Below are positions 13,579 to 28,147 of a DNA stretch of 37,758 nucleotides, one piece after another (positions within the stretch are counted from its first letter, which is position 1; each line of letters starts with the position of its first letter). Source of the DNA: Sulfurovum sp. (GTDB lineage: Bacteria; Campylobacterota; Campylobacteria; Campylobacterales; Sulfurovaceae); contig WTAE01000046.1 in NCBI GenBank assembly GCA_013139765.1, forward strand, positions 1-37,758, in the 5' to 3' direction. Both the position numbers and the translations under genes were made by a program. The notes under the pieces were generated by a model. That model ran no database searches. It was not told where the DNA came from and saw nothing but the letters and a program-made list of their open reading frames with translations.

Positions 13579-14412
13579 TTAATCGTTAAACATAAGTCTT
13601 TTTCTAAAGAGAAGAAATATAAGCATAAAACCAATCAGACCAAAGCCCAGTCCATAAAGTAAGTTTATTAAGTATGGATATCTGAGTATCCAATAAAAAA
13701 GAAATACATTGTTATTCATCTCATCAAAAGCCAGTTGATATTCTGTTTTAGCAATGGCCTGAAGACCCAATAAGTTTTTTATTTCTTTGCTAACATTTGT
13801 AGTATTATCTGTTTCAAGAGTTAGCATCACATAGTTCGTTTCTTGATCTAAAGCTGAGGCTTCCACTTGGCTAATACTTATATTGGCTATTTTATTAGAA
13901 TTGTTCTCAACAGCAAGTGTATGCACGACTTTTGAAACTTGTACAATCTTTTTTAATCGCATAGGATATTTAACGCCATCTTGATGAAGTTGATTTAAAA
14001 AAACCTGGCGTTCTTTACGCTTAACCAGAGTAAGCATTGGATGTTTCTCTTGCATGCTTTTTATATTGTTGTAATGTTTTACTGAAAAAGTAGAAGTAGT
14101 GTTTCCGTCAAGAGTATACGCAATACTTTCTCTATATTTTATTTTATTTTTTTTCTTTGAACGGTACTCAACAGCCCTATAACGGATCATCCCATTTTGT
14201 TTTAAGTAGTTAAGCTCAGGGACATCAAAATACATTTCTAAAATTTTGTCATCGGTTTGTTTTGCATTATACTTTTTTGTAGCTAAGTAATTGTCAATCT
14301 CTTTTTTTATTACAGAAAACTCTTTTTTTATTATAAAAGATTGTTTGATATTGGTACTTGAATGACAAGTAGTAAACAGTAGAAAAACAGATAAAAAGAT
14401 TCTAATGAGCAT
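13579..14412 (-). CDS. Membrane-anchored CYTH/VTC-like domain protein, predicted periplasmic-facing
   Basis: ORF listed from 14436; internal Met (MLIRIFLSVFLLF) at 14412 gives a signal-like N-terminus. EMYFDVPE...IRYRAVEYRSKKKNKIKYRES and AKTEYQLAF parallel the VTC-domain blocks of the nearby 15789-16505 product. C-terminal TM: NLLYGLGFGLIGFMLIFLLF. Confidence 0.5.
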   Translation of the reverse strand: MLIRIFLSVFLLFTTCHSSTNIKQSFIIKKEFSVIKKEIDNYLATKKYNAKQTDDKILEMYFDVPELNYLKQNGMIRYRAVEYRSKKKNKIKYRESIAYTLDGNTTSTFSVKHYNNIKSMQEKHPMLTLVKRKERQVFLNQLHQDGVKYPMRLKKIVQVSKVVHTLAVENNSNKIANISISQVEASALDQETNYVMLTLETDNTTNVSKEIKNLLGLQAIAKTEYQLAFDEMNNNVFLFYWILRYPYLINLLYGLGFGLIGFMLIFLLFRKRLMFND

Positions 14413-15046
14413 GATGTTGTTTACTCCAACTCTCATGGGCTTTTTCTATAAGAACTTCAGCTTCTTTACGTTTCATGTAGCCCATAAAATGCATTTCCCC
14501 ACCTTTGTATCCTGTAAACCAGTATCGAATAATCTCTACTGTTCCTGGAAATTCAGTCATCAATTCACCAAGGCTTTCTACCTTAGAAAAAGGGCCATTC
14601 ATGGGAACAGCTATAATCTTATCATCCTGTTCTCCACTGTCTAAAAGCTTTAAAGCACCCAGTACTTTTACTGCCTGAATACTTCCCCTGTCAACAGCCG
14701 ATCCCAAAACGATGATATCAAGTGGGTCACCATCTCCACCTTCATTTTTTTCTAAAATAGTTTGAGGAATGAAGCCATAGTTTCCCGGGTAACCTAAAAA
14801 TTTTACATTTCTTGGTTTCTTGTTTTTAAATTCCCATTCAAGATGTCCTGTTTCATGGTTTACTTCCCATTTGGCAGTTGTTCCTGCGGGTATTTCTATG
14901 AGCGCTTGGTAATCAGGCTTTTTATAAGATACGCCATTAACCAAATGAACATTGGAAAGTATTTTATATTCTCCAGCAGGCTTCAAGACTATCTCTTGTG
15001 CAGACAAGATAGAAAGAAAAGCGAGGAACCCTGTAACTTTTTTCAT
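14402..15046 (-). CDS. Inorganic pyrophosphatase, family I, with predicted N-terminal signal peptide
   Basis: MKKVTGFLAFLSILSAQ leader; IEIPAGTTAKWEV, YPGNYGFIPQTI, GGDGDPLDIIVLG, DDKIIAVP match family I PPase motifs. Confidence 0.88.
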   Translation of the reverse strand: MKKVTGFLAFLSILSAQEIVLKPAGEYKILSNVHLVNGVSYKKPDYQALIEIPAGTTAKWEVNHETGHLEWEFKNKKPRNVKFLGYPGNYGFIPQTILEKNEGGDGDPLDIIVLGSAVDRGSIQAVKVLGALKLLDSGEQDDKIIAVPMNGPFSKVESLGELMTEFPGTVEIIRYWFTGYKGGEMHFMGYMKRKEAEVLIEKAHESWSKQHHAH

Positions 15047-15738
15047 ACTTGTGCCAAGTCGCCAGAGTAAGTTATAAGTGTTGCTTTGATGATTTTATCA
15101 TCACTATGAAGTTTATTTAAAAATGAAGTATCATCACCTTTGAGTCTTACTTCAGCGGTTATCTCTTCATACTGTGGGGTAATCGTTTTAGACTTCAGCA
15201 TAAAACGCTCTACAGCTTTTTTTATCTCTTTTACTACAGGTGTTGCATCTGTAGTGGTGGGTACTTGAAGAACAAGTAAGTAAGGTTGCTCTTCTTCTGA
15301 TTTACGTGTCATAAATAGAAGAACTATGGTCATTACAATGGAACCAATAATAGAAATATTGAAGTACCCTACACCATTTGCTATACCTATTGTAATTGCC
15401 CAAAAGATAAATACTAAATCAACAGGATCTTTGATAGGTGTACGAAAACGCACAATGGAAAGTGCACCAACCATACCAAGAGAAAGAACCAAGTTACCAC
15501 TAATGGTCATAATAATTAGTGTTATTACCATCGCAATTGCCACTAAAGAAACATTGAAACTTCTTTGGTAAAGTACCCCTTGAAAAGTTTTCTTATAGAC
15601 ATAAAATATAAACAGACCTACGATAAAAGACACCCCTAGGTTTATAAGTATTTCGATTGCGCTAAAACGCTCCATACCACTTTGCATTGCTACAAAGCTC
15701 TTGTTAAATATATCACTGTAATTCAATTGTTCTTGCAT
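15043..15738 (-). CDS. DUF4956-family multi-TM membrane protein
   Basis: About four hydrophobic segments; SLGMVGALSIVRFRTPIKDPVDLVFIFWAITIGIANGVGYF; soluble C-terminal domain. Adjacent to a VTC-domain gene. Confidence 0.8.
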   Translation of the reverse strand: MQEQLNYSDIFNKSFVAMQSGMERFSAIEILINLGVSFIVGLFIFYVYKKTFQGVLYQRSFNVSLVAIAMVITLIIMTISGNLVLSLGMVGALSIVRFRTPIKDPVDLVFIFWAITIGIANGVGYFNISIIGSIVMTIVLLFMTRKSEEEQPYLLVLQVPTTTDATPVVKEIKKAVERFMLKSKTITPQYEEITAEVRLKGDDTSFLNKLHSDDKIIKATLITYSGDLAQV

Positions 15739-15788
15739 CTGTTTTTCCTTTTGTTGTTTTAAAATTTGTATTTGCTTGTATTACAAAT

Positions 15789-16505
15789 TTAATTGTCTTC
15801 CCATTGTTCAATTTTGAAGAATCTTCTTCCTAAAGTATATTTACTTATTGCCATTCTTTCAACTGCATCGAGTTGAAGTGTTCTGTGTATATACTCAGGA
15901 AGAGCAGTTTCGTACTTTATCTCCATTATCTGTTTGCCTTCTAGTATTACGGGTATCGTATGTAAGTTATCACTAAAGATGTCAAAGTCAGTGTTACACG
16001 AGTGTAAGTCTTTATCAAAGGTAATACGAAGATTAAAAAAGTCAAACATAAAAGCATCTCTTGTATAGTCAATGATAACTTTTGGTTTATACTGTTTTTC
16101 TGTAAACTTTTTAAAAATCTTATTTAAAATAGGATTATTATAAGTCAATAACTCCCCATACTCCCCATCAATTATCTTATAGGCACTCTTTTTTGAAATG
16201 GTAGCAGTCTCTTTAAATATCTGGTTATTAGCCTTATTTTTAATCTCAAACTTGACTGTATCGGTTTTAGTGTCATAAATCCGCATTCGGTACTTTGCTC
16301 TAAACATATCACCTGACTGTTTTTCATAAAGACACTCATCATCATGCGAATCAAAGTAAAGACTTCGTATAAAGTAGCCTTTCCCTGGTGTACTGAAAGC
16401 ATCAGGTTTCAGTACATGGACAAGCTTATTGACCATTGCTTGGTATTCTAAATTAGAAATATAGTATTTTAATTCATTTCGTTTAACTTGTAGGTTATTC
16501 ATCAA
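15789..16505 (-). CDS. VTC-domain (polyphosphate polymerase domain) protein
   Basis: VKRNELKYYIS, RSLYFDS, YRMRIYD, KFEIKNK, IDYTRDAF, LRITFD, ILEGKQIMEIKYE, ISKYTLGRRF: basic tunnel residues and acidic metal ligands arranged as in VTC/triphosphate-tunnel enzymes. Confidence 0.87.
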   Translation of the reverse strand: MMNNLQVKRNELKYYISNLEYQAMVNKLVHVLKPDAFSTPGKGYFIRSLYFDSHDDECLYEKQSGDMFRAKYRMRIYDTKTDTVKFEIKNKANNQIFKETATISKKSAYKIIDGEYGELLTYNNPILNKIFKKFTEKQYKPKVIIDYTRDAFMFDFFNLRITFDKDLHSCNTDFDIFSDNLHTIPVILEGKQIMEIKYETALPEYIHRTLQLDAVERMAISKYTLGRRFFKIEQWEDN

Positions 16506-17319
16506 TTTTCACCTTAACGACCTTGACTTTAAAGTTTACACCGAGAGTCCGAGAGTCTTCATTTATCCTCAACTCTTTTGGCACAAAGGTATCATCAATT
16601 GTGATGGATACGGTATGTATTCCTTTAGGAATCGAAAATCTATAAGTATGTTTTTGATGTGTACGTATTACTGTTTTATTCATCAGGTGATTATCTACAT
16701 ATAGTTGTACAACATGATTAGGGCTAAGTGTATTACTTGTGTAATACTCTATTTCATACTTATATTCAAAACTATTTTTAACATCAATAGCTATAGTCGC
16801 TGTAGATCCCTTACTCCACCCATCACTATATCTATTCCCATATTTAAAAGATATTTCATTTTTGTAAGTTCTATATAAAACTTTTTCTTTTACCCAATAG
16901 TCGTAGGAATCATCCTTGTATTTAATTTTACTATTGATTGTATCTACATATTTAGTATATATGTTTTTACCGAGTAATATTTTTAATTTCTCCTCAGCCT
17001 TCGTATTATACCTATTTAATTCATATGCCATTTTTAGATATTTTATTTTATCTTTTTCTATTGCGTTTGTACTAGCTACAAAGTAATATCGTCTTGATTT
17101 GTCTATTTTGTTATTAGTTAACTGAGCAGCATGCAAAAAATGTTGACTTGCTTCTTTAGTTTGTCCTTTTTGTATGAGTTCCTGACCTTTATTTTCTTTA
17201 AGCTTAGCTTGTTCATAATTTAAAGGGCCTAAAGCCCACTGAATAAATAAAACACTTAAAAGTATAGTGATAGTAAGTATTATAAATCCTAAACTAGGAA
17301 AATATTTTTTAATGAGCAT
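16495..17319 (-). CDS. Hypothetical membrane-anchored protein: N-terminal TM, helical TPR-like region, C-terminal beta-sandwich-like domain
   Basis: FIILTITILLSVLFIQWAL N-terminal TM; ENKGQELIQKGQTKEASQHFLHAAQL TPR-like; C-terminus ...EDSRTLGVNFKVKVVKV. Confidence 0.55.
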   Translation of the reverse strand: MLIKKYFPSLGFIILTITILLSVLFIQWALGPLNYEQAKLKENKGQELIQKGQTKEASQHFLHAAQLTNNKIDKSRRYYFVASTNAIEKDKIKYLKMAYELNRYNTKAEEKLKILLGKNIYTKYVDTINSKIKYKDDSYDYWVKEKVLYRTYKNEISFKYGNRYSDGWSKGSTATIAIDVKNSFEYKYEIEYYTSNTLSPNHVVQLYVDNHLMNKTVIRTHQKHTYRFSIPKGIHTVSITIDDTFVPKELRINEDSRTLGVNFKVKVVKVKIDE

Positions 17320-20011
17320 ATTTCACCTCTACTTCATCTAGGTACTTTTTGTATGGTGTTTGCTGGATATTGTCATACCATTGAAACTGTTTTAAACTAG
17401 GTAAGTCATCTTCTATTTTATGCTCAATTTTTTGAGCCGATCGCTTATCTGCTTTAACTTTTGTATTGCCTAACATATAGATTGTCTTAGCATCTAAAAA
17501 ACCACCTGTGTCATAACGTTTGTTTTTATTGTAGAGGTTTATGGCCTTTGCTTTTGAATCGACATATATTAAATTATTCGCAACAACATGAGACTTGTCT
17601 TTTATCTCCGTCCCTATGAGTGTTCTTAAAAAGAAACTATCTGTTATGTTCGCCTCTGACCATTCACCTACGGATATACCTTTATCTCCCATATCGATAA
17701 ATACATTATTTGAGGCATTCATAGTCGTTGTCATGATGTCTAACCCATCATTACCACTTTTGTAAAATATGTTATTTGTGATGTTCACATCAGATATATC
17801 TATATCTAGTCCATCACTTCGAGCATTTGTAAACTCACAACTATCTACAATACCTTTTGCATAAGCAATGTGCATAGCATCATCACCCACATGGTTACGA
17901 GCTATCTTACAGTGGCGAACTTCAAACCAGTCAACATCATGTATATTAAACGGTGATGTGTAGTGAATAAGATTTCTTGTATCTATAGATCCATTTTTAA
18001 ATTCACAGTACTCAAATTTACTTCCACTTGCAGCTTTTCCTTGCACTGCCACTAATCCCCAAGGCTTATTTGGATCTTTTGCTATGAATTTTATTGGTTT
18101 CTCTTTTGTTCCTATTGCAGATACTTTTCCATAAAAATAGATAGAGGTATTTTCATCCATTATAAAAGTTGTGTTTGGTTTTATAATTACTGTTGTATTT
18201 TTATTAAAAACTATAGTTTTATTTACATGGATAGGCCCTTCAAATATTTTATTCTGAGCAGGTTTTGTAAATATCCAGGGATGAATGATTGTATGATTTT
18301 GCTTAAAGTTTATATTACTCTTTTCTGGAATAACATTCTTCCCTGTGATATCATTAATATATCGTATATGAGTTACAAAGCTATCTATGAGTTCTTGCTT
18401 ATTTATTACAAATTCATAAACTAAATTAGCACTTCCCACTTTATCTCTACCGTGGAATGCAATAGGATATTTTGTTTGTCCATTTTGTATTAATTCTTTG
18501 CCTGGGTATAAAATTTCATTGTTATTAACTTTATATTCTTCCTCCCGAAATATTTTAAATACAGTAAGATTGTATTCTCGAGGAAATATAAGTTTTATAG
18601 GTGAGTTTCCACTTACTTCAAAGTAAATATGATTTTTTTCTAGGTAATATTTAATTTTAGTATTATTGATAATTTTATGAAGGTTACTTAATCTTTTATC
18701 AATTTTTTTTATATCATTGTGAAATTGATCTGTTAAATCATCAAAGCTAAATGCTAAAGAATACCAAGGTGGATTAGAAAATAATTTTGGTAACCAGGTT
18801 GCAGTATCTTTATACATATCAGCTTTAACATCTTTTTCTACTTTATTTAAAATACTTGAATATTTTTTTTCAAGCAAGCTTATAGGGTATTCATTTAACA
18901 TTTTATAAAGTATTCTATCAATTTCTGCATCAAATATTGGATTTTCAGAGGCCTTGAGAATAAATTGGTAAAGCGATTCATCTTTTAATTCGGAATCAGT
19001 CCAAAACCTGATATCCCACTCAATGGGTTCAAATTTTCCTTTATAGGGGTCAAAGTACAATTTCAGATTATGTCCAAAGTCATGATGAGGACTACCCGTA
19101 AAACGATCTAATGCTATATATGAGAAATACTTTTCTTTATTAATCATTGTATTAACAAAATCAAAGAATTGCATATGATTCATATCATTTGTAGCTTCAA
19201 TAAAATACTGGATATCGTCTCTATTTTCTTTTTGTTCAGCATTTCTTGCTGCTTTTTTTTGCCAATATTTCTCATTGAAACACAGATCAAAAATACCATT
19301 TTCATTAATAGGTGCGGCCTCTCCATAGTAAATACTTCCTGGCATTAATTTATGTTTTCTAAGTAGACTTTCATCGACTTGACTTAAGTAAATATATGTT
19401 CCCATATACGCACCATTTATAAATACCCTAACAGGATAATATTCTGGTGTAATAAGTCCTAAATCAGAAGCTATTTGATAGCTAATCATATCTCTAATTT
19501 GCAAGAACATAGGTGGGTTAATGAGGTTAAAGGATTTTGCCATATTGTACACATCATTTTTGGCTAATTTTAATCTTAAAGATTTTTGTGCGTACATCCA
19601 ATGGAAGGTATTATCACCTCTATACCTCATTTTCACTTTATAAATGGCATCTTTTTTGTCACTAGCAGACATATATGCATCTACATAATGGTCTTTCCCG
19701 CTTATAGGTAAGTCTTCACTCAATCCATCAATATCTGTTTGTTTTACAGTGATTCGAAAAGTTTTTAAAGGAGATTCATCATCATTCAAAGCTTTAGGAG
19801 TAGTAATATTAATATACTCTTTTTTTAACTCATTTTTTAAGAAGAAATGAAATCTATCCAGTGTTAGCTCTAATGTTGGATTAACTATTTTTTTATAAGT
19901 ATAAAAACTATTTAAAGCTAAAACAGAATAAAAAGTCATTGTTAAAATAATTAATAGTGCAATAAGCATACTTATATTTAATCTAGGTCTCAAAAGATTA
20001 AATAAACCCAT
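17309..20011 (-). CDS. CotH-like kinase fused to right-handed parallel beta-helix, membrane anchored
   Basis: ORF listed from 20065; Met at 20011 overlaps the upstream stop by 1 nt (TGATG) and is preferred. N-terminal TM; MRYRGDNTFHWMYAQKSLRLKL; YIYLSQVDESLL; RFTGSPHHDFGHNLKLYFDPYKGKFEPIEWDIRFW (CotH). C-terminal repeats such as HCKIARNHVGDDAMHI..VDSCEFTNARSDGLDIDISDVNITNNIFYKSGNDGLDI (PbH1). Confidence 0.85.
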   Translation of the reverse strand: MGLFNLLRPRLNISMLIALLIILTMTFYSVLALNSFYTYKKIVNPTLELTLDRFHFFLKNELKKEYINITTPKALNDDESPLKTFRITVKQTDIDGLSEDLPISGKDHYVDAYMSASDKKDAIYKVKMRYRGDNTFHWMYAQKSLRLKLAKNDVYNMAKSFNLINPPMFLQIRDMISYQIASDLGLITPEYYPVRVFINGAYMGTYIYLSQVDESLLRKHKLMPGSIYYGEAAPINENGIFDLCFNEKYWQKKAARNAEQKENRDDIQYFIEATNDMNHMQFFDFVNTMINKEKYFSYIALDRFTGSPHHDFGHNLKLYFDPYKGKFEPIEWDIRFWTDSELKDESLYQFILKASENPIFDAEIDRILYKMLNEYPISLLEKKYSSILNKVEKDVKADMYKDTATWLPKLFSNPPWYSLAFSFDDLTDQFHNDIKKIDKRLSNLHKIINNTKIKYYLEKNHIYFEVSGNSPIKLIFPREYNLTVFKIFREEEYKVNNNEILYPGKELIQNGQTKYPIAFHGRDKVGSANLVYEFVINKQELIDSFVTHIRYINDITGKNVIPEKSNINFKQNHTIIHPWIFTKPAQNKIFEGPIHVNKTIVFNKNTTVIIKPNTTFIMDENTSIYFYGKVSAIGTKEKPIKFIAKDPNKPWGLVAVQGKAASGSKFEYCEFKNGSIDTRNLIHYTSPFNIHDVDWFEVRHCKIARNHVGDDAMHIAYAKGIVDSCEFTNARSDGLDIDISDVNITNNIFYKSGNDGLDIMTTTMNASNNVFIDMGDKGISVGEWSEANITDSFFLRTLIGTEIKDKSHVVANNLIYVDSKAKAINLYNKNKRYDTGGFLDAKTIYMLGNTKVKADKRSAQKIEHKIEDDLPSLKQFQWYDNIQQTPYKKYLDEVEVKYAH

Positions 20012-21216
20012 CAGGTACCTAGCACTTTTATAAGTGCCTGTGTACTCTCTTCCCAAGTCAACCATGGCATATCATCTGATTTCGGATGCTTATCAATTTC
20101 ATATAGTTCTAACCACTTTTTTACAGTATCTACAAAAACTTCAGGATTATTATCATTTTCAAAATAGTAAGCATACTCTCCCGCAACTTCTTTAAATACA
20201 GGGATATCTCTAGCAATAATTGGAAGTTTGTGTTGTGCAGCTTCAATTAATGGCAATCCGAAACCTTCTCCTTCACTAGCAGCGATTAGACATGTAGATA
20301 CTTTATAAACTGTTTCTAAATATTCATCACTAATACCATTTAACCAAAATAGTCGTTTACCTAATTCTGGGTGATTCGTTATCTTTTCAATGAGAACTTC
20401 AACATCCCACCCTTGTTTACCGACAATGACTAAGTTTATATTTAAACCTTGCTCCCATAGTAATTCAAATGATGCCAACGTTTGTTCTTGCCCTTTACGC
20501 GGTTCTACAGTGCCAACCATTAAAAATGTAGGAGAAGATGAAAGTATCTTAATCACAGAATTTCCATCATCAGGAATACCAAGAGTAGGCACAGATGCAT
20601 CAACATCTGCACCTAAGTGAAACCATTGAACTTGACAAGATGCATAGTATTCATTTTTATGCTTTTTTAACCATATTTTAAATTCATCTGCTACAGCTTT
20701 AGATATGCATATTACACCATCATTTTGTGCTAAAATACTTAGCCATTCATGATGTAAGTTTTCTACACTTTCATGAAAAACATGAGGCATTAACACTGGT
20801 AGTAAATCATAAATAATAAAATAAACTTTTACTTTTTTTTCTCTCATTTTTTGGTAAAACGGTGCTTGTTTCAAGACAACATGATGTTGTAAATCTAATC
20901 CTAGAAAAATATCGCCTTTATTAAATTGGATAGGCTCTTCAGATATGGGAGGTTCAACAGTTTTTGTACATTGTCCATTAAGAGATAGTGAATCTTGATT
21001 CTCTTGAGGAGTAAAAAAATTACTTAGAAATTTTTTTGCATAATAATACCCTTCATTTTCAGGTGTTCCAAATACTGCCTCGACTTTATATCCTAAAGGG
21101 GGATTAGTTAAAAGTTCTTTAAGAATACTTCTTACCACCCTTTGGATACCTGTTTTAGAATCTTGGTTAACCAACTCAGATATGTCTATAAGTAATTGTT
21201 TGTGTAAGCTATACAT
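20011..21216 (-). CDS. GT4-family glycosyltransferase (paralogue A)
   Basis: LMVGTVEPRKGQEQTLASFELL; EGEGFGLPLIEAAQHKLPIIARDIPVFKEV. Confidence 0.88.
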   Translation of the reverse strand: MYSLHKQLLIDISELVNQDSKTGIQRVVRSILKELLTNPPLGYKVEAVFGTPENEGYYYAKKFLSNFFTPQENQDSLSLNGQCTKTVEPPISEEPIQFNKGDIFLGLDLQHHVVLKQAPFYQKMREKKVKVYFIIYDLLPVLMPHVFHESVENLHHEWLSILAQNDGVICISKAVADEFKIWLKKHKNEYYASCQVQWFHLGADVDASVPTLGIPDDGNSVIKILSSSPTFLMVGTVEPRKGQEQTLASFELLWEQGLNINLVIVGKQGWDVEVLIEKITNHPELGKRLFWLNGISDEYLETVYKVSTCLIAASEGEGFGLPLIEAAQHKLPIIARDIPVFKEVAGEYAYYFENDNNPEVFVDTVKKWLELYEIDKHPKSDDMPWLTWEESTQALIKVLGT

Positions 21217-22441: not shown

Positions 22442-23758
22442 TTAATTTTGAAGTTCAAATTTAACATCTCTAAGTGCAATACCTAAATTTAGATCATCAG
22501 AAGTATCTTTGATATTGAATGTAACTTTATTTTTAGTATCACTGGGGTTTTGTAAACAAATGCTATATCTTGTCCATTCCTGATATACTTCTTTTTGAGA
22601 TTCTATGATCTCATCATCAACCAGTATATCTAGAGTTGTAGGATTGACAGAACGCCATAAGAAGCTCAATACTCCATTATCCCATTCAAACTCTGGTTTG
22701 AAATCACTCCACATAAAGAAGTTCCCTTGACCGTCACCTTCTATCTCTTTAAAGCCTTTTCCGCTTCTTTTCAGTCTGTTTAAATTGTTTAACTTTTCAT
22801 AAGTATTAGATAGTTTTTTCACTACATTAGACCATAAAAAGTTTTCTTTCATATGTTTATAAAGTTCTTTAGAACATTGTTTATTTAATGATTTACTTAT
22901 GCCTTCTTTAATATCTTCTTCAGAGTTAGGATCTACATAAGTAACATAATTCCCAAAATACTCTTGGGTGCAACCTTCTAATGTGACTAAAATCTTGGCC
23001 CCCATTGCAGCGGCTTCTAATGCAGCCAGACCGGGTGTTTCCACAGTACTTGGAAGTGCAAATAATTCACATGCGGCATATGCTGATTTTAACAATAATG
23101 AATCATGGGGCAATGAACCCAAATATATAATTTGGTTGCCACCCTCATTTAGGCACTCCTCTAAATATTGTTGATCACGTATATATCCAAGCATAACTAG
23201 TTTTAATTCAGGAAAATTTTTCATTGCCTTTATCAACGAAAGTTGATTTTTCCTTGGTTCAATATTTGCTACATTTAAAATAAATTTTTCACTAATATTA
23301 AAATGATCTAAAAAGAGTGAAGTATCAATTGGCTCAAAAAAACTCTCTTCTATACCGTTATATATCGTAAGAAATTTTCCACGTGGCATAGTGAAAATAT
23401 CGGACAATAAATTACATTCGGTGTCAGAGTTTCCAATAATGACATCTGCCAATATAAAGTCATTGCGAATTTCATCAAAAGGGTATAAATGTTTGGTTTC
23501 TTCCGTAACCCATAAATTAGGAGATATTATTAGGGGAAGTTCAAGTTTTTTTACATGTGATAAAAAGTGTACACTACCACCCATACAAGAAAAATAATGT
23601 ACTATATCATAGTTCAAAAAATCTGGTTTCCACAGATTAAATAGGTTAATATCTATATTCTCCTTGTTATGTATATACTTTTGGTATTGTAAAAGTTGAA
23701 CTTCACCTCCACCAGGTTTATCGAAAGCAACAGGGTATGTGTTAAAGAGTATTTTCAT
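22442..23758 (-). CDS. GT4-family glycosyltransferase with extra C-terminal beta-sandwich-like domain
   Basis: YPVAFDKPGGGEVQLLQY; NVANIEPRKNQLSLIKAM; STVETPGLAALEAAAMGAKILVT. About 100 extra C-terminal aa ending DLNLGIALRDVKFELQN. Confidence 0.83.
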   Translation of the reverse strand: MKILFNTYPVAFDKPGGGEVQLLQYQKYIHNKENIDINLFNLWKPDFLNYDIVHYFSCMGGSVHFLSHVKKLELPLIISPNLWVTEETKHLYPFDEIRNDFILADVIIGNSDTECNLLSDIFTMPRGKFLTIYNGIEESFFEPIDTSLFLDHFNISEKFILNVANIEPRKNQLSLIKAMKNFPELKLVMLGYIRDQQYLEECLNEGGNQIIYLGSLPHDSLLLKSAYAACELFALPSTVETPGLAALEAAAMGAKILVTLEGCTQEYFGNYVTYVDPNSEEDIKEGISKSLNKQCSKELYKHMKENFLWSNVVKKLSNTYEKLNNLNRLKRSGKGFKEIEGDGQGNFFMWSDFKPEFEWDNGVLSFLWRSVNPTTLDILVDDEIIESQKEVYQEWTRYSICLQNPSDTKNKVTFNIKDTSDDLNLGIALRDVKFELQN

Positions 23759-24510
23759 AATTCATTCCAAATAGTTTGCATCAACCAATCTCTACCCGTA
23801 ATTCCAGAAGCTTCTTCTGAAAGTAAAAATGAAACAAGGTTTGCAACTTCTGTTGTAGAGTTAAAACGTTTTAACTCTAGAGGTTTACAAATTTCTTTGT
23901 AGTACTGCTCTGATGTTTTTCCTGCTTCCTCTGCCATTCGGTTCATATCTAGTTTCCCCATTTCTGTGTCTACCCAACCCGGTGAAACAGCATTAACAGT
24001 AATGCCTTCTTCTCCAAGTTCTTTTGCCCAGCATTTTGTCATACCGATCAATCCAAATTTAGAGGCACAATAAGCAGAATACTCAGCACGACCTTCGTGT
24101 CCTAATTGTGAAGTGATATTTACAATGCGTCCAGGACGACTTAAAAAAGGAAGTAGTTTTTTTGTCAATAGATATGGCCCAATAAGGTTTGTATTTAAGA
24201 CTTCATCTAATGGGTCATCCCCCTCATCTTTAATGCCTAGGGTTTTACAAATACCAGCATTGTGTACAATTCCCCATAACTCTTGATCCCACTTTTTTAT
24301 AAAACTTGCTATTTCTAGTTTATTTTCCTGATCAAGAGCATATACTTTTACATTGTTGTTTTTTACAAATGACATTTCTGATAATTTAGAAGCAGATATC
24401 TCATTACTTGTCGTCAGGACAAGAGAGTAGTTTTTTTCAGCTAACATTTTTGCTATCTCTAAGCCGATACCTCGACTAGCACCTGTGATTAAAATATGTT
24501 TATTATTCAT
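23755..24510 (-). CDS. Short-chain dehydrogenase/reductase (SDR)
   Basis: ILITGASRGIGLEIAKML; HNAGI; YSAYCASKFGLIGMTK (YxxxK); VNAVSPGWVDTEM. Confidence 0.93.
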   Translation of the reverse strand: MNNKHILITGASRGIGLEIAKMLAEKNYSLVLTTSNEISASKLSEMSFVKNNNVKVYALDQENKLEIASFIKKWDQELWGIVHNAGICKTLGIKDEGDDPLDEVLNTNLIGPYLLTKKLLPFLSRPGRIVNITSQLGHEGRAEYSAYCASKFGLIGMTKCWAKELGEEGITVNAVSPGWVDTEMGKLDMNRMAEEAGKTSEQYYKEICKPLELKRFNSTTEVANLVSFLLSEEASGITGRDWLMQTIWNEL

Positions 24511-25704
24511 CTAGTCATTCCATTTAAACTTTATGTCTTGCATTCTCTCAATAGCAGTAAATAGTTGTCTCGTTGCTGTCTTCCAAGATTGTGGTTTTAT
24601 ATCTTTAGATTTTGGGTGAATATCTTTTTCAAACTTATTTTGCCAAGATTCTATTTCAACTAATAATTCTTGGGGATTATTTGCTGTCATATAATAAGCA
24701 CCATCCTTGCAAACTTCTCTAAAAACAGGTATGTCCCGTGCAATAATTGGCAAATCGTAATGTCCTGCCTCTACAAGAGGTAGTCCAAAACCTTCAGCTT
24801 CAGATAGGGCAAGAAGGACAGATGATGAATTATATATTTTCATTAAATATTCATCATTTATACCATTGAACCAAAACAATCGTTTATTTAATTCAGGGTG
24901 AGATTGGATTTTTAATATTAAATCCTCAACATGCCATCCTGGACGACCTACTATAATAAGGTTGACATTCTCACCTTTTGCCCAAAGTTTTTCAAAAGTA
25001 TATAAGGCAAGAGCATAACCCTTTCGTGGTTCAATTGTTCCAACCATTAGATAATTAATACTACCTTGAAGTTTTTCAATTGTATTCTTTAAGTCCTTAT
25101 CCCATTCAATAGCTGATACACTTTCTTCAAAGTCGCAGCCAAGATGAAAAAAATCAAGATTTACATTATTTTTCACTTGTTCTTTATTTTGTTTTAGCCA
25201 CAAAGCTGCATGTTTTTGAACAGATTCTGAAATACAAATTAATCCATCACTTTCATTTACTGCAGTATCAAACCAATAATTAAATAATTCTAAATAACTA
25301 TTCCCTTCGAACCAATTATTTGTACCTTCAAACCAATGAGGGTATTCTATAGGTATTAAATCGTAAAGAACAAAAAATATCCCTATGCCTTTTTTTCTAT
25401 ATGAGGTAAGTTTATTTCTCAATGATGGTGTAATATTATATGTAAGGTCAACACTTAAAAAGATATCTCCAGATTGAGGGCTGATGATAGTATTGGTATC
25501 ATCATAAGTCAAAAATGTCTTAGTTGCGAATGAAACACTGTAGTAGTTACCATCTTTAATATCTCCTCGAACAGGTACAATTTTCCAATCTAAAGGTGGT
25601 GATAATTTTAATATATTTAAAATTGCACGTGTAACCCTTTGAATACCCGTACCCTTATCGTATTGAACTAATTCAGTTACATCATAGAAGATTGTTTTAG
25701 ACAT
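24511..25704 (-). CDS. GT4-family glycosyltransferase (paralogue B)
   Basis: GTGIQRVTRAILNIL; YLMVGTIEPRKGYALALYTFEKL; SEAEGFGLPLVEAGHYDLPIIARDIPVFREV. Confidence 0.88.
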   Translation of the reverse strand: MSKTIFYDVTELVQYDKGTGIQRVTRAILNILKLSPPLDWKIVPVRGDIKDGNYYSVSFATKTFLTYDDTNTIISPQSGDIFLSVDLTYNITPSLRNKLTSYRKKGIGIFFVLYDLIPIEYPHWFEGTNNWFEGNSYLELFNYWFDTAVNESDGLICISESVQKHAALWLKQNKEQVKNNVNLDFFHLGCDFEESVSAIEWDKDLKNTIEKLQGSINYLMVGTIEPRKGYALALYTFEKLWAKGENVNLIIVGRPGWHVEDLILKIQSHPELNKRLFWFNGINDEYLMKIYNSSSVLLALSEAEGFGLPLVEAGHYDLPIIARDIPVFREVCKDGAYYMTANNPQELLVEIESWQNKFEKDIHPKSKDIKPQSWKTATRQLFTAIERMQDIKFKWND

Positions 25705-25715
25705 ATAACTGGGAC

Positions 25716-26837
25716 TTACTTTTTTATGCGCTGTTGATTTTTGTCAATAGCTTGTCTTAACAAGTCTTCTTCTATATAATGACCATATTCACCTGACTTA
25801 GTCAGTGCCATACTGCCAACACTTTGAAGAATACCTGTATATACTTTGCCATTCAGACTATGTTTATCATATTTCATTTTGTTCCATATGTTATCAAAAC
25901 TATATTTTTTCGGTACGACTGTTGGAAGACTATATTTATCAAATATAGAGTAGTGTAAGTCTCTTGTTCTCTCATCGGACAATCCCAATAATAATGCTAT
26001 TTCGCTTGATACACACATACCTATTGCTATAGCTTCTCCATGATAGATTTCACCATTGGAAAGGTGTTCAATAGCGTGACCTAGTGCATGTCCATATTGT
26101 TTAATGGTCTCATCAAAGTCATCTTCTAGATCATCATTCATTAATTCTAATTTTAATTCAATTGATCGTTGAATGATTTCAAGTAAAATATTTTCATCAT
26201 CCAAATTCTCTACATTTTTTTCAAGGAAGTCATAAAAAGGTCTATCTTGACATAAGGCATGTTTGATACTTTCAGATAAACCATCTACTATAAATCTACG
26301 ATCTAATGTTTTAAGTACAGTAGGATCAATAATAATTTGTGAAGCTGGATAATAACTACCAAGTAAGTTTTTACCCTGGTTGTGGTTCACCGCTTGTTTA
26401 AAATCTATTGCCGCATCAACTTGAGCTAGCATACTTGTAGGAAAGTGAATTAGGCCGATACCTCTATATAATGTAGAAGCTAAAAAACCTGCTATATTAT
26501 TGACTACTCCACCACCAAGACTAAAAATGACTGAGTGCTTATCAAAACCGTAATTTAAACATTCATCCGCTAAACGTGAGTATTCTTGCAAATTCTTAGA
26601 TTTATCATAAGGAGGAATAATTAATTTTAGAACATTATATCCATTGGCTTCAATTTGTTCAATAATTTTTTTTGCATATAAGATATCTACATTTTCATCG
26701 GTGATTAAAATATGTTTAGAGGTTTTTTCTATAGTATTAAAAAGATTTAATGTACTTAAGTTATCTAATGCATGTAAAGATAATTTAATATCACTAGATA
26801 GTATTTTTTTTGCTGTTAATTTAAATGTTTTCATCAT
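25716..26837 (-). CDS. 3-dehydroquinate-synthase-family sugar-phosphate cyclase (DOIS-like rather than typical AroB)
   Basis: FSLGGGVVNNIAGFLASTLYRGIGLIHFPTSMLAQVDAAIDFKQAVNHNQGKNLLGSYYPA; YGHALGHAIEHLSNGEIYHGEAIAIGM. Confidence 0.85.
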   Translation of the reverse strand: MMKTFKLTAKKILSSDIKLSLHALDNLSTLNLFNTIEKTSKHILITDENVDILYAKKIIEQIEANGYNVLKLIIPPYDKSKNLQEYSRLADECLNYGFDKHSVIFSLGGGVVNNIAGFLASTLYRGIGLIHFPTSMLAQVDAAIDFKQAVNHNQGKNLLGSYYPASQIIIDPTVLKTLDRRFIVDGLSESIKHALCQDRPFYDFLEKNVENLDDENILLEIIQRSIELKLELMNDDLEDDFDETIKQYGHALGHAIEHLSNGEIYHGEAIAIGMCVSSEIALLLGLSDERTRDLHYSIFDKYSLPTVVPKKYSFDNIWNKMKYDKHSLNGKVYTGILQSVGSMALTKSGEYGHYIEEDLLRQAIDKNQQRIKK

Positions 26838-28147
26838 TTCACCACATGTCTAAATTTAGCACGATTACCTACACGAATGAAATCTTCGTGACCCACATAT
26901 TCAACGTTAAAGGCATCTTGCCACTGTGCTTTTATCTTAGCGCTTATTTCCTCTACAATAGCTGTAGGCTCCAGTGCTATGCGTAAAACAGGTTTGTCTT
27001 CTCTCAAGTCTATCTGAAACTCCTGAATGCCTCCAACCAAATGGTCCAATATATCCATAATGTTATGGGTAGGGTACTCTATGCCATTGATAGGAACCAT
27101 GTCATGGATGCGACCCACTACATTGGTCAAAACAAAAGCATTTTTCGTTTCTTCTACTTTTGCCATGTCTCCCGTTGCATAACGAATGAGTGGCATAAGA
27201 CGGTTGTGAAAACCTGTAAACACAAGTTCATCGCCATCTTCTGTGCTTCTGTTTTCTGGCCAGCCTTCTGACTCAAGTACTTGCAGACCATTCTCGTGAC
27301 CATCAAGCTCATAGGCAATGACACCAAACTCAGCAGAACCGTAACGGTCAATTACTTTACAGTTAAATACCTCTGCAATCTTCTCGCGCATATAAGGCTG
27401 TAAAAGTTCTCCACTAGATTCGAAAATATCAAACACTTTTTTACCTTGATGCTTTGACTCTACATAACATGCCAAGGCATATAATGTTGAAGGGTGCCCA
27501 TGTACTAAGTTCACTCTTCTTTGTTGAAGTGTTTGCCATATTTTTTCTAGACCGATACTGTCTAATCTGTCAAAAAAAGCATTGCTTCGGTTTAGTGCAA
27601 AGTTTTTAATGTCATCTTTAGAGGGTAAAGTTGTTTTGGGAGGTTCTGCAAAACTTGCCGCGAAATGTAGTTCTGACTTATGTGCAGAGTGACCTATACG
27701 TTGACGAGCATACTTTGTTACGGCTGCAGAATAGTCCAATCCGATTTGATCATAATATACATCCATAGAAACACCTGTTGAACCCCCTGTTTTTCTATGA
27801 TGATGACGTATGCTTTCCAAAGGTGTTGAAAAGAGTCTATCTCCCTGTTCTCGGATGATCTCTTTTGTCAAATAAGGGATCTCTTCTAAGTACTTAATAT
27901 CGCGACGAACAGACTCAGGGTCAAAGTTTAGAGATGAAAATAGATCTTTATAATAAGGTATATTTCGATTTGAAAAATTTAATATTTCAACAAGTTGATG
28001 ATGCGCATGTTCTTTTCTTTTTTCAAAAGAGGTTTTATAGTAGTTCTCAAGTTCTTTCACTTTTGAACTAATATTTCTTTTTTCAAAGCTTTCTGCAATA
28101 GGGTAAGCGATATATGCTCCAGCGATACCTCGTAAACTTTTCAACAT
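26834..28147 (-). CDS. CapK/PaaK-like adenylate-forming protein (phenylacetate-CoA ligase family)
   Basis: HHHRKTGGSTGVSMDVYYD; VHGHPSTLYALACYVE; FESSGELLQPYMREKIAEVFNCKVIDRYGSAEFGVIAYEL; YATGDMAKVEE. Confidence 0.87.
   Translation of the reverse strand: MLKSLRGIAGAYIAYPIAESFEKRNISSKVKELENYYKTSFEKRKEHAHHQLVEILNFSNRNIPYYKDLFSSLNFDPESVRRDIKYLEEIPYLTKEIIREQGDRLFSTPLESIRHHHRKTGGSTGVSMDVYYDQIGLDYSAAVTKYARQRIGHSAHKSELHFAASFAEPPKTTLPSKDDIKNFALNRSNAFFDRLDSIGLEKIWQTLQQRRVNLVHGHPSTLYALACYVESKHQGKKVFDIFESSGELLQPYMREKIAEVFNCKVIDRYGSAEFGVIAYELDGHENGLQVLESEGWPENRSTEDGDELVFTGFHNRLMPLIRYATGDMAKVEETKNAFVLTNVVGRIHDMVPINGIEYPTHNIMDILDHLVGGIQEFQIDLREDKPVLRIALEPTAIVEEISAKIKAQWQDAFNVEYVGHEDFIRVGNRAKFRHVVK

Follow-up and report, generated by a model that had tools for sequence, protein, structure and literature searches.

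A 37,758-nt stretch of DNA from Sulfurovum sp. (GenBank assembly GCA_013139765.1, contig WTAE01000046.1; hereafter the window) carries six co-directional, tightly packed open reading frames (ORFs) on the minus strand at positions 13579-20065. They encode a membrane-anchored CotH kinase fused to a β-helix (protein F), an anchored TPR-like protein (E), a VTC polyphosphate (polyP) polymerase domain (D), a DUF4956 membrane protein (C), a family I inorganic pyrophosphatase (PPase) with a predicted signal peptide (B), and a doubly anchored protein with a domain resembling the triphosphate tunnel metalloenzymes (TTM; A). The VTC-DUF4956-CotH core of this module is recurrent and widespread in bacteria, and the PPase and protein A are a rare extension of it. 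Our preferred reading, held tentatively and with belief and doubt almost in balance, is that the module represents, in a Gram-negative bacterium, the recurrent VTC-DUF4956-CotH envelope cassette and acts on a glycan in an exopolysaccharide or capsule locus.

Four of the six proteins are assigned by Pfam (VTC 5.7e-41, Pyrophosphatase 2e-35, CotH 4.1e-25 and DUF4956 1.6e-11). Profile scans of the surrounding genes found a WbaP-type sugar transferase, WecB, several GT4 glycosyltransferases and an ABC exporter, neighbours that uphold the link to a polysaccharide locus made in an initial annotation of this DNA. No match for any of the six proteins was found in defence-system and phage-family libraries.

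A recurrent core and a rare extension

A genome scan seeded on DUF4956 gave at least 567 confirmed relatives; the locus counts given here refer to the best 80 GTDB loci. In 79 of these VTC and DUF4956 are neighbours, the exception (L097) having DUF4956 close to a contig end, and CotH is found near the pair in 59 loci by one profile and in 61 by either profile. The three are thus recurrent neighbours in other genomes, as the initial annotation had stated. Protein A is present in one of the 80 loci and the module PPase in none; several contigs end near the core (for example L107 and L108), so that absence of A or the PPase there is not proven. Of the co-occurrence that the annotation had proposed to look for in a survey of this kind, the core was recovered, as was A (in four genomes), but that of the PPase was not, being restricted to two genomes.

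A different species of the genus (genome G286) has all six genes, identically ordered. Because the order is repeated in another species, the arrangement is not a matter of chance. Protein identity between G286 and the window falls from 92% for DUF4956 and 89% for VTC to 67% for the PPase, 57% for CotH, 46% for A and 31% for the TPR-like protein. The ratio of nonsynonymous to synonymous substitution rates (dN/dS) is below 1 for each gene for which it was computable, the ratios being rough with synonymous sites near saturation. A genome of the same family (G443) has the order CotH-VTC-DUF4956-A, without the PPase or a separate TPR gene, and in the gammaproteobacterium Candidatus Thiodiazotropha the order is VTC-DUF4956-A-CotH/β-helix and then a small TPR-like protein with an anchor, again without the PPase. 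The VTC cut-off was exceeded in 7/151 family genomes and 9/321 Gammaproteobacteria, and this sporadic carriage suggests that the module has spread by horizontal transfer or has been lost repeatedly.

The VTC and DUF4956 proteins

By profile comparison the VTC protein matches the Vtc4 structures 3g3q and 8i6v (3.9e-17). In yeast, VTC couples polyP synthesis to translocation, and mutation of Vtc4 R264, R266 or E426 inactivates the enzyme (PMC9911596). R73 and R75 of the window protein align directly with R264 and R266, and E195 with E426 by position; across 101 sequences these three are 99-100% conserved, and the wider set R73, R75, E87, K89, K98, Y147, R149, R160, E195, K197 and S221/K222 is 97-100% conserved. 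The protein therefore appears to be polymerase-competent, as had been assumed. It consists of 238 residues of VTC domain only, Pfam and topology prediction detecting no SPX domain, Vtc1-type transmembrane (TM) domain, signal peptide or TM helix. No PPK1 match was found in the bin of the source genome (G000, 88.5% complete), PPK1 being present in G286, G443 and a further genome, G519; if its absence from so incomplete a bin is real, VTC could be the sole polyP polymerase of the source genome.

The DUF4956 protein has 4-5 TM helices and a soluble C-terminal domain. Its motif VRFRTxIKD is invariant, with R97, F98, R99 and G118 conserved in 100% and K103 in 98% of 98 sequences. An older annotation as a GTPase/tubulin (PMC2879425) is contradicted by Pfam and topology.

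In two Campylobacterota loci (L002:1480-2289 and L003:1462-2295) a VTC protein of a different type is encoded beside a TolC-like outer-membrane protein gene, and L002 also has a CotH fragment close by. The gammaproteobacterial loci L122 and L123 show comparable arrangements of VTC and a TolC-like gene.

A CotH kinase fused to a β-helix

Protein F matches Bacillus cereus CotH (5jd9) by both sequence and fold (E 2.6e-17, target-normalised TM-score (TMt) 0.77). Its AlphaFold2 model has a predicted local distance difference test (pLDDT) score of 89.2, mostly above 90 in the β-helix, which confirms the β-helix proposed earlier. At the N-terminus a hydrophobic helix is preceded by positive charge; with the N-terminal and anchor topology of the PPase and A, this upholds, as a prediction, the placing of all three proteins outside the cytoplasm. 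The kinase motifs are YY246/247, HHDxxHN (327-333) and WD (350-351). Equivalents of protein kinase A D166, N171 and D184 have been assigned in CotH, together with an adenine-stacking Tyr and Trp (PMC12189002). Here N333, W350, D351 and the YY pair are kept, with the catalytic-loop Asp at -4 from the Asn and not -5.

Foldseek matches the C-terminal β-helix to PL6 alginate lyases, chondroitinase B and AlgG, suggesting that this modelled domain is directed to a glycan target. The initial annotation had left this domain undeveloped, although no other part of the module points so directly to a glycan. No PL6 or AlgG sequence family was matched above threshold (NosD, at 0.0029, was sub-threshold), and the PL6/AlgG catalytic Lys/Arg set is not matched, the 17 aligned sequences showing instead a ladder of Asp, Lys, Ser and Glu without an invariant Arg. 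Residues D729, D751, D754, D756, D773, D776, D794, K795, S798, G800, E801, K822, D823, S825 and K847 are invariant in 17/17, and the face on which they lie is a candidate site for binding a glycan or metal. The fusion occurs in most Gram-negative loci that have CotH: it is present in 6/6 Campylobacterota loci and in 5/5 gammaproteobacterial loci with CotH, as well as in Thiodiazotropha, Elusimicrobiaceae and two deltaproteobacterial-type loci; it was found in none of the Firmicutes loci. The kinase motif is more variable than this ladder. Two CotH-β-helix proteins (L035:6690-9278 and L108:54-2831) apparently lack the kinase Trp-Asp and keep the full β-helix ladder, suggesting from these sequences that the β-helix may be able to act without an active kinase.

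Proteins A and E

AlphaFold2 modelling of A, from four sequences, gave a structure of moderate confidence (pLDDT 67.6) with the TTM order β-α-β4-α-β3. When this model was compared with the PDB, Foldseek returned VTC complexes, YgiF, Pct1, TTM3 and Med18/20, with probabilities of about 1 for VTC, YgiF and Med18/20; the Mediator subunits Med18/20 share the TTM barrel. Both ends of the protein are hydrophobic and the charges place the domain outside the membrane. The initial annotation had described A as a double-anchored CYTH/VTC-like protein: the anchors are supported by topology and the fold by the model, but not by sequence profiles. Window A has no match to a Pfam family, its hhalign comparison with VTC reached only 6%, and a sequence search of the PDB gave nothing meaningful.

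The ExExK first strand and the catalytic Glu/Lys/Arg columns are absent or replaced in the four A orthologues, whose invariant residues are K120, K131, H132 and KRKxR (139-143). Since these catalytic features are missing, A appears to be non-catalytic; the earlier suggestion that it processes pyrophosphate (PPi) or short polyP is not supported in that form, and the reading of A as an active CYTH phosphatase was rejected on the same loss of motifs. A is best seen, on the strength of the model, as a non-catalytic TTM-like subunit, possibly one that binds phosphate. Strong matches to A were confined to G000, G286 and G519 among 398 Campylobacterota and 293 Gammaproteobacteria genomes, with none in plasmid records, and A adjoins the core in four genomes (the window, G286, G443 and Thiodiazotropha).

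For protein E, described earlier as an anchored TPR/β-sandwich protein, the anchor is predicted and the TPR, below the Pfam threshold in the window protein, is above it in the G286 orthologue, leaving the β-sandwich with a sub-threshold DUF7024 match alone. Its counterpart in Thiodiazotropha is likewise an anchored TPR-like protein. In G443, where the separate TPR/β-sandwich gene is missing, the CotH protein (L106:7134-10292) carries an extra, β-sandwich-like N-terminal domain; this extension is possibly a gene fusion with the TPR/β-sandwich protein.

A pyrophosphatase predicted to be exported

Alignment to eukaryotic-type PPases shows the active-site residues to be present (E51, K59, E61, R79, Y90, D105, D107, D110, D136, D141, K143, Y180 and K181). 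The N-terminus (residues ~1-16) has a positive start and a hydrophobic stretch in both the window and G286 orthologues, whose signal sequences differ, and this feature is not found in the housekeeping copy; the signal peptide assigned to the PPase thus remains the probable interpretation of its sequence. A separate cytosolic PPase of 172 aa, without a signal peptide, is encoded in G000 (G000:C44) and in G286, so the module enzyme is not the sole PPase of the cell. Its dN/dS is ~0.13 between the window and G286, and among 121 family genomes the module type is found only in these two. The proposal that the PPase is part of the system holds in so far as an apparently intact enzyme, predicted to be exported, is kept in the window and in G286, but the enzyme is a narrow add-on and, being limited to two genomes and 0/80 GTDB loci, lies outside the general system.

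A search of plasmid records with the PPase returned housekeeping types and one exported ParB-like/PPase fusion. This fusion, on a Vibrio pelagius plasmid (NZ_AP025505.1, L016:8963-10507), bears a signal peptide and joins a ParB-like domain (PF08857, DGHH motif) to a pyrophosphatase that shares 47% identity with the PPase of the module; it is another exported PPase tied to what may be a nucleotide- or phosphate-using domain.

Proposed mechanism and alternatives

In the envelope cassette that we favour, the cytosolic VTC protein would make polyP from ATP, as its conserved active site implies, and DUF4956 would dock VTC at the inner membrane and pass or gate the chain, VRFRTxIKD perhaps forming a basic mouth. 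Beyond the membrane, the β-helix of the anchored CotH protein would hold the polysaccharide of the locus while the kinase phosphorylates or polyphosphorylates the glycan; for this step topology, fusion and fold come from prediction, and we infer substrate and donor. The periplasm-facing A, with its predicted fold, may be where the phosphate chain is bound or received, and the anchored TPR protein may serve as a scaffold. The exported PPase, added in this genus, would remove PPi arising from the end of polyP use or from a nucleotide-using CotH.

Envelope kinases have to obtain phosphate outside the membrane, where ATP is scarce. With a recurrent operon that encodes both a polyP polymerase and a kinase beyond the cytoplasm, polyP becomes directly testable as an external phosphodonor. 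This variant offers three handles: its exported PPase; protein A, whose tunnel-fold domain is predicted to lie across the membrane; and the lyase-like β-helix of the kinase, a hint that the substrate is a glycan.

Several observations weigh against this reading. The enzymatic activity of every part is predicted. In Streptococcus intermedius, deletion of CotH (SIR_1594) or DUF4956 (SIR_1592) alters aggregation and the amount of Pel, and no such effect is reported for deletion of VTC (SIR_1593) (PMC12345266); given this result, CotH in that organism need not depend on polyP from VTC. W350, which aligns with the adenine-stacking Trp of CotH, is kept in 33/39 aligned sequences and therefore favours a nucleotide donor. 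The simplest form of polyP as the CotH donor is thus partly contradicted, by the S. intermedius deletions and by the retained Trp. Profile comparison finds a weak, distant similarity of DUF4956 to MgtC, and a resemblance to MgtC with an ACT-like domain has been described (PMC12345266), a type that is regulatory and not a channel. The model of A is of only moderate confidence, built from its four sequences, and has low Foldseek TM-scores (0.2-0.35), and the G286 orthologue (L014:17788-18390), an intact ORF between both anchors, lacks the first strand and ~50 C-terminal TTM-like residues. The PPase occupies its module position in two genomes only. A polyP link is favoured by the intact active site of VTC and by its near-constant occurrence beside DUF4956.

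The cassette may instead be regulatory, an explanation that we consider rather unlikely yet deserving of serious attention: DUF4956 (MgtC/ACT-like) and CotH would set the amount or export of the polysaccharide, CotH would phosphorylate an envelope protein with a nucleotide, and VTC would only tune phosphate or ATP, so that polyP is not the donor. The same idea has been put forward for Pel clusters (PMC7112168), and it would account for the opposite shifts in Pel amount in the S. intermedius CotH and DUF4956 mutants, with none reported for VTC (PMC12345266), as well as for the MgtC similarity and the retained adenine-stacking position. It fits less well with a VTC that is found beside DUF4956 more constantly than any other gene and keeps every catalytic column, or with the fused glycan-lyase-like β-helix, which better suits a glycan substrate, and it calls on a nucleotide outside the membrane, where no source is known. 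The fully elaborated form of the polyP scheme, a trans-membrane relay, strikes us as improbable: here VTC would push polyP via DUF4956 to the non-catalytic, periplasm-facing A, A would hand it on to CotH-β-helix, which would phosphorylate the exopolysaccharide with polyP and not ATP, and the exported PPase would clear PPi to render the transfer irreversible. We are similarly doubtful that polyP itself is the surface product, exported by VTC-DUF4956 and anchored by CotH-β-helix as an anionic layer on the polysaccharide or envelope, with A holding and the PPase trimming it. The coupling of synthesis to translocation established for yeast VTC (PMC9911596) and the predicted position of the anchored, TTM-like A on the exit side agree with this, but CotH is not known to act as a polyP ligase, A is without TTM catalytic residues, and long chains are expected to be poor substrates for a family I PPase. 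Lastly, the PPase has only a small chance of being an incidental operon insertion unlinked to the cassette. In keeping with such an insertion, it is absent in 80/80 GTDB loci, and the modules of G443 and Thiodiazotropha lack it too. Yet two species whose PPases are 67% identical have it at one position, overlapping DUF4956 by four bases; it retains a changed signal sequence and an intact active site under purifying selection, and is of a type found only in these two module loci among the 121 family genomes.

Gene layout and flanking genes

The six ORFs are consecutive and co-directional where the initial annotation had placed them (Table 1), and its 50-nt VTC-DUF4956 gap and few-base overlaps elsewhere agree with the ORF coordinates. 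Measured from likely starts, junctions overlap by 4-11 nt, the gap 5' of DUF4956 being the sole exception; the overlap of PPase and DUF4956 is four bases, and that of PPase and A is 35 nt from the first ATG of A or 11 nt from the next. CotH is likely to start at the ATG at 20011, within a TGATG overlap with the stop of the upstream glycosyltransferase gene, which matches the end coordinate given in that annotation.

Table 1. Features of the module and its flanking gene, in window coordinates.
Feature	Position	Strand	Size or residues	Basis
F: membrane-anchored CotH kinase with C-terminal β-helix	17309..20011 (ORF to 20065)	-	900 aa (918 aa from upstream ATG 20065)	Pfam; 5jd9 by sequence and fold
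CotH kinase region of F	18971..19642	-	residues ~142-365	Alignment to B. cereus CotH 5jd9; conservation counts
Right-handed β-helix of F	17450..18256	-	residues ~604-872	AlphaFold2, Foldseek, conservation
E: single-TM-anchored TPR-like protein, possible β-sandwich C-terminus	16495..17319	-		TM 5-33
D: VTC (polyphosphate polymerase) domain, predicted cytosolic	15789..16502 (ORF to 16505; ATG 16502)	-		Pfam; Vtc4 structures
C: DUF4956 membrane protein	15043..15738	-		Pfam; 4-5 TM helices
B: family I inorganic pyrophosphatase, predicted signal peptide	14402..15046	-		Pfam; active-site alignment
A: N- and C-terminally anchored protein, predicted periplasmic TTM-like domain	13579..14436	-		AlphaFold2; Foldseek
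Flanking GT4 glycosyltransferase	20011..21216	-		Pfam Glycos_transf_1 2.2e-26; overlaps CotH start

Among the glycosyltransferase genes at 23755-28147 of the window are those for a short-chain dehydrogenase, a second 3-dehydroquinate-synthase-like enzyme and an AMP-dependent CoA-ligase-like protein, which may give the polysaccharide an uncommon cyclitol or acyl modification.

Comparison with known systems

The core cassette has been noted before, beside Pel (PMC7112168), in Clostridium perfringens (PMC2879425) and in S. intermedius (PMC12345266). The arrangement was reported not to be found outside Pel loci (PMC12345266); contrary to this, the window, with no Pel-family match among its proteins scanned, shows that the cassette also occurs elsewhere. 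What is new here is the rare extension of this known, uncharacterised core by the PPase and A. The initial annotation had considered an exported PPase and a second tunnel-fold-like protein undescribed, and for both, as for the CotH-β-helix fusion, no description was found in the literature searched, most subscription journals lying outside the search.

Among known systems, the accessory genes of Gram-positive Pel operons in Streptococci, Clostridia and Bifidobacteria (PMC7112168, PMC12345266) likewise place CotH, a polyP polymerase and DUF4956 side by side in a polysaccharide locus, but their CotH has no β-helix, an exported PPase and a TTM-like A are not described, and DUF4832 or diguanylate cyclase/phosphodiesterase (DGC/PDE) genes are found instead. 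The NELoc-2 VTC/'tubulin'/CotH cluster of C. perfringens (PMC2879425) similarly joins VTC to a membrane protein neighbour, with CotH beside a glycosyltransferase; it differs in being Gram-positive, in having two VTC copies and neither PPase nor A, and in its annotation. With the eukaryotic VTC complex (Vtc1/Vtc3/Vtc4) the module shares a catalytic TTM, a membrane part and a second, non-polymerising TTM (Vtc3 in yeast), whereas here SPX and Vtc1-type domains are lacking, prediction places the second TTM on the trans face of the membrane, and DUF4956 stands in place of the Vtc TM bundle. The Bacillus CotH spore-coat kinase (5jd9/5jda) has the same kinase fold (TMt 0.77) and the Trp, Asp and Asn of the active region; the window protein, unlike it, is membrane-anchored and β-helix-fused, with its catalytic-loop Asp one residue nearer the Asn (-4 not -5). 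Finally, the acidocalcisomal/vacuolar soluble PPase of trypanosomes (5c5v, 5cuy) is also a eukaryotic-like family I PPase in a non-cytosolic compartment that holds VTC products; the window enzyme, by comparison, is bacterial, predicted to be Sec-exported and much shorter at its N-terminus, and is no closer to the trypanosome enzyme than to other eukaryotic-type PPases.

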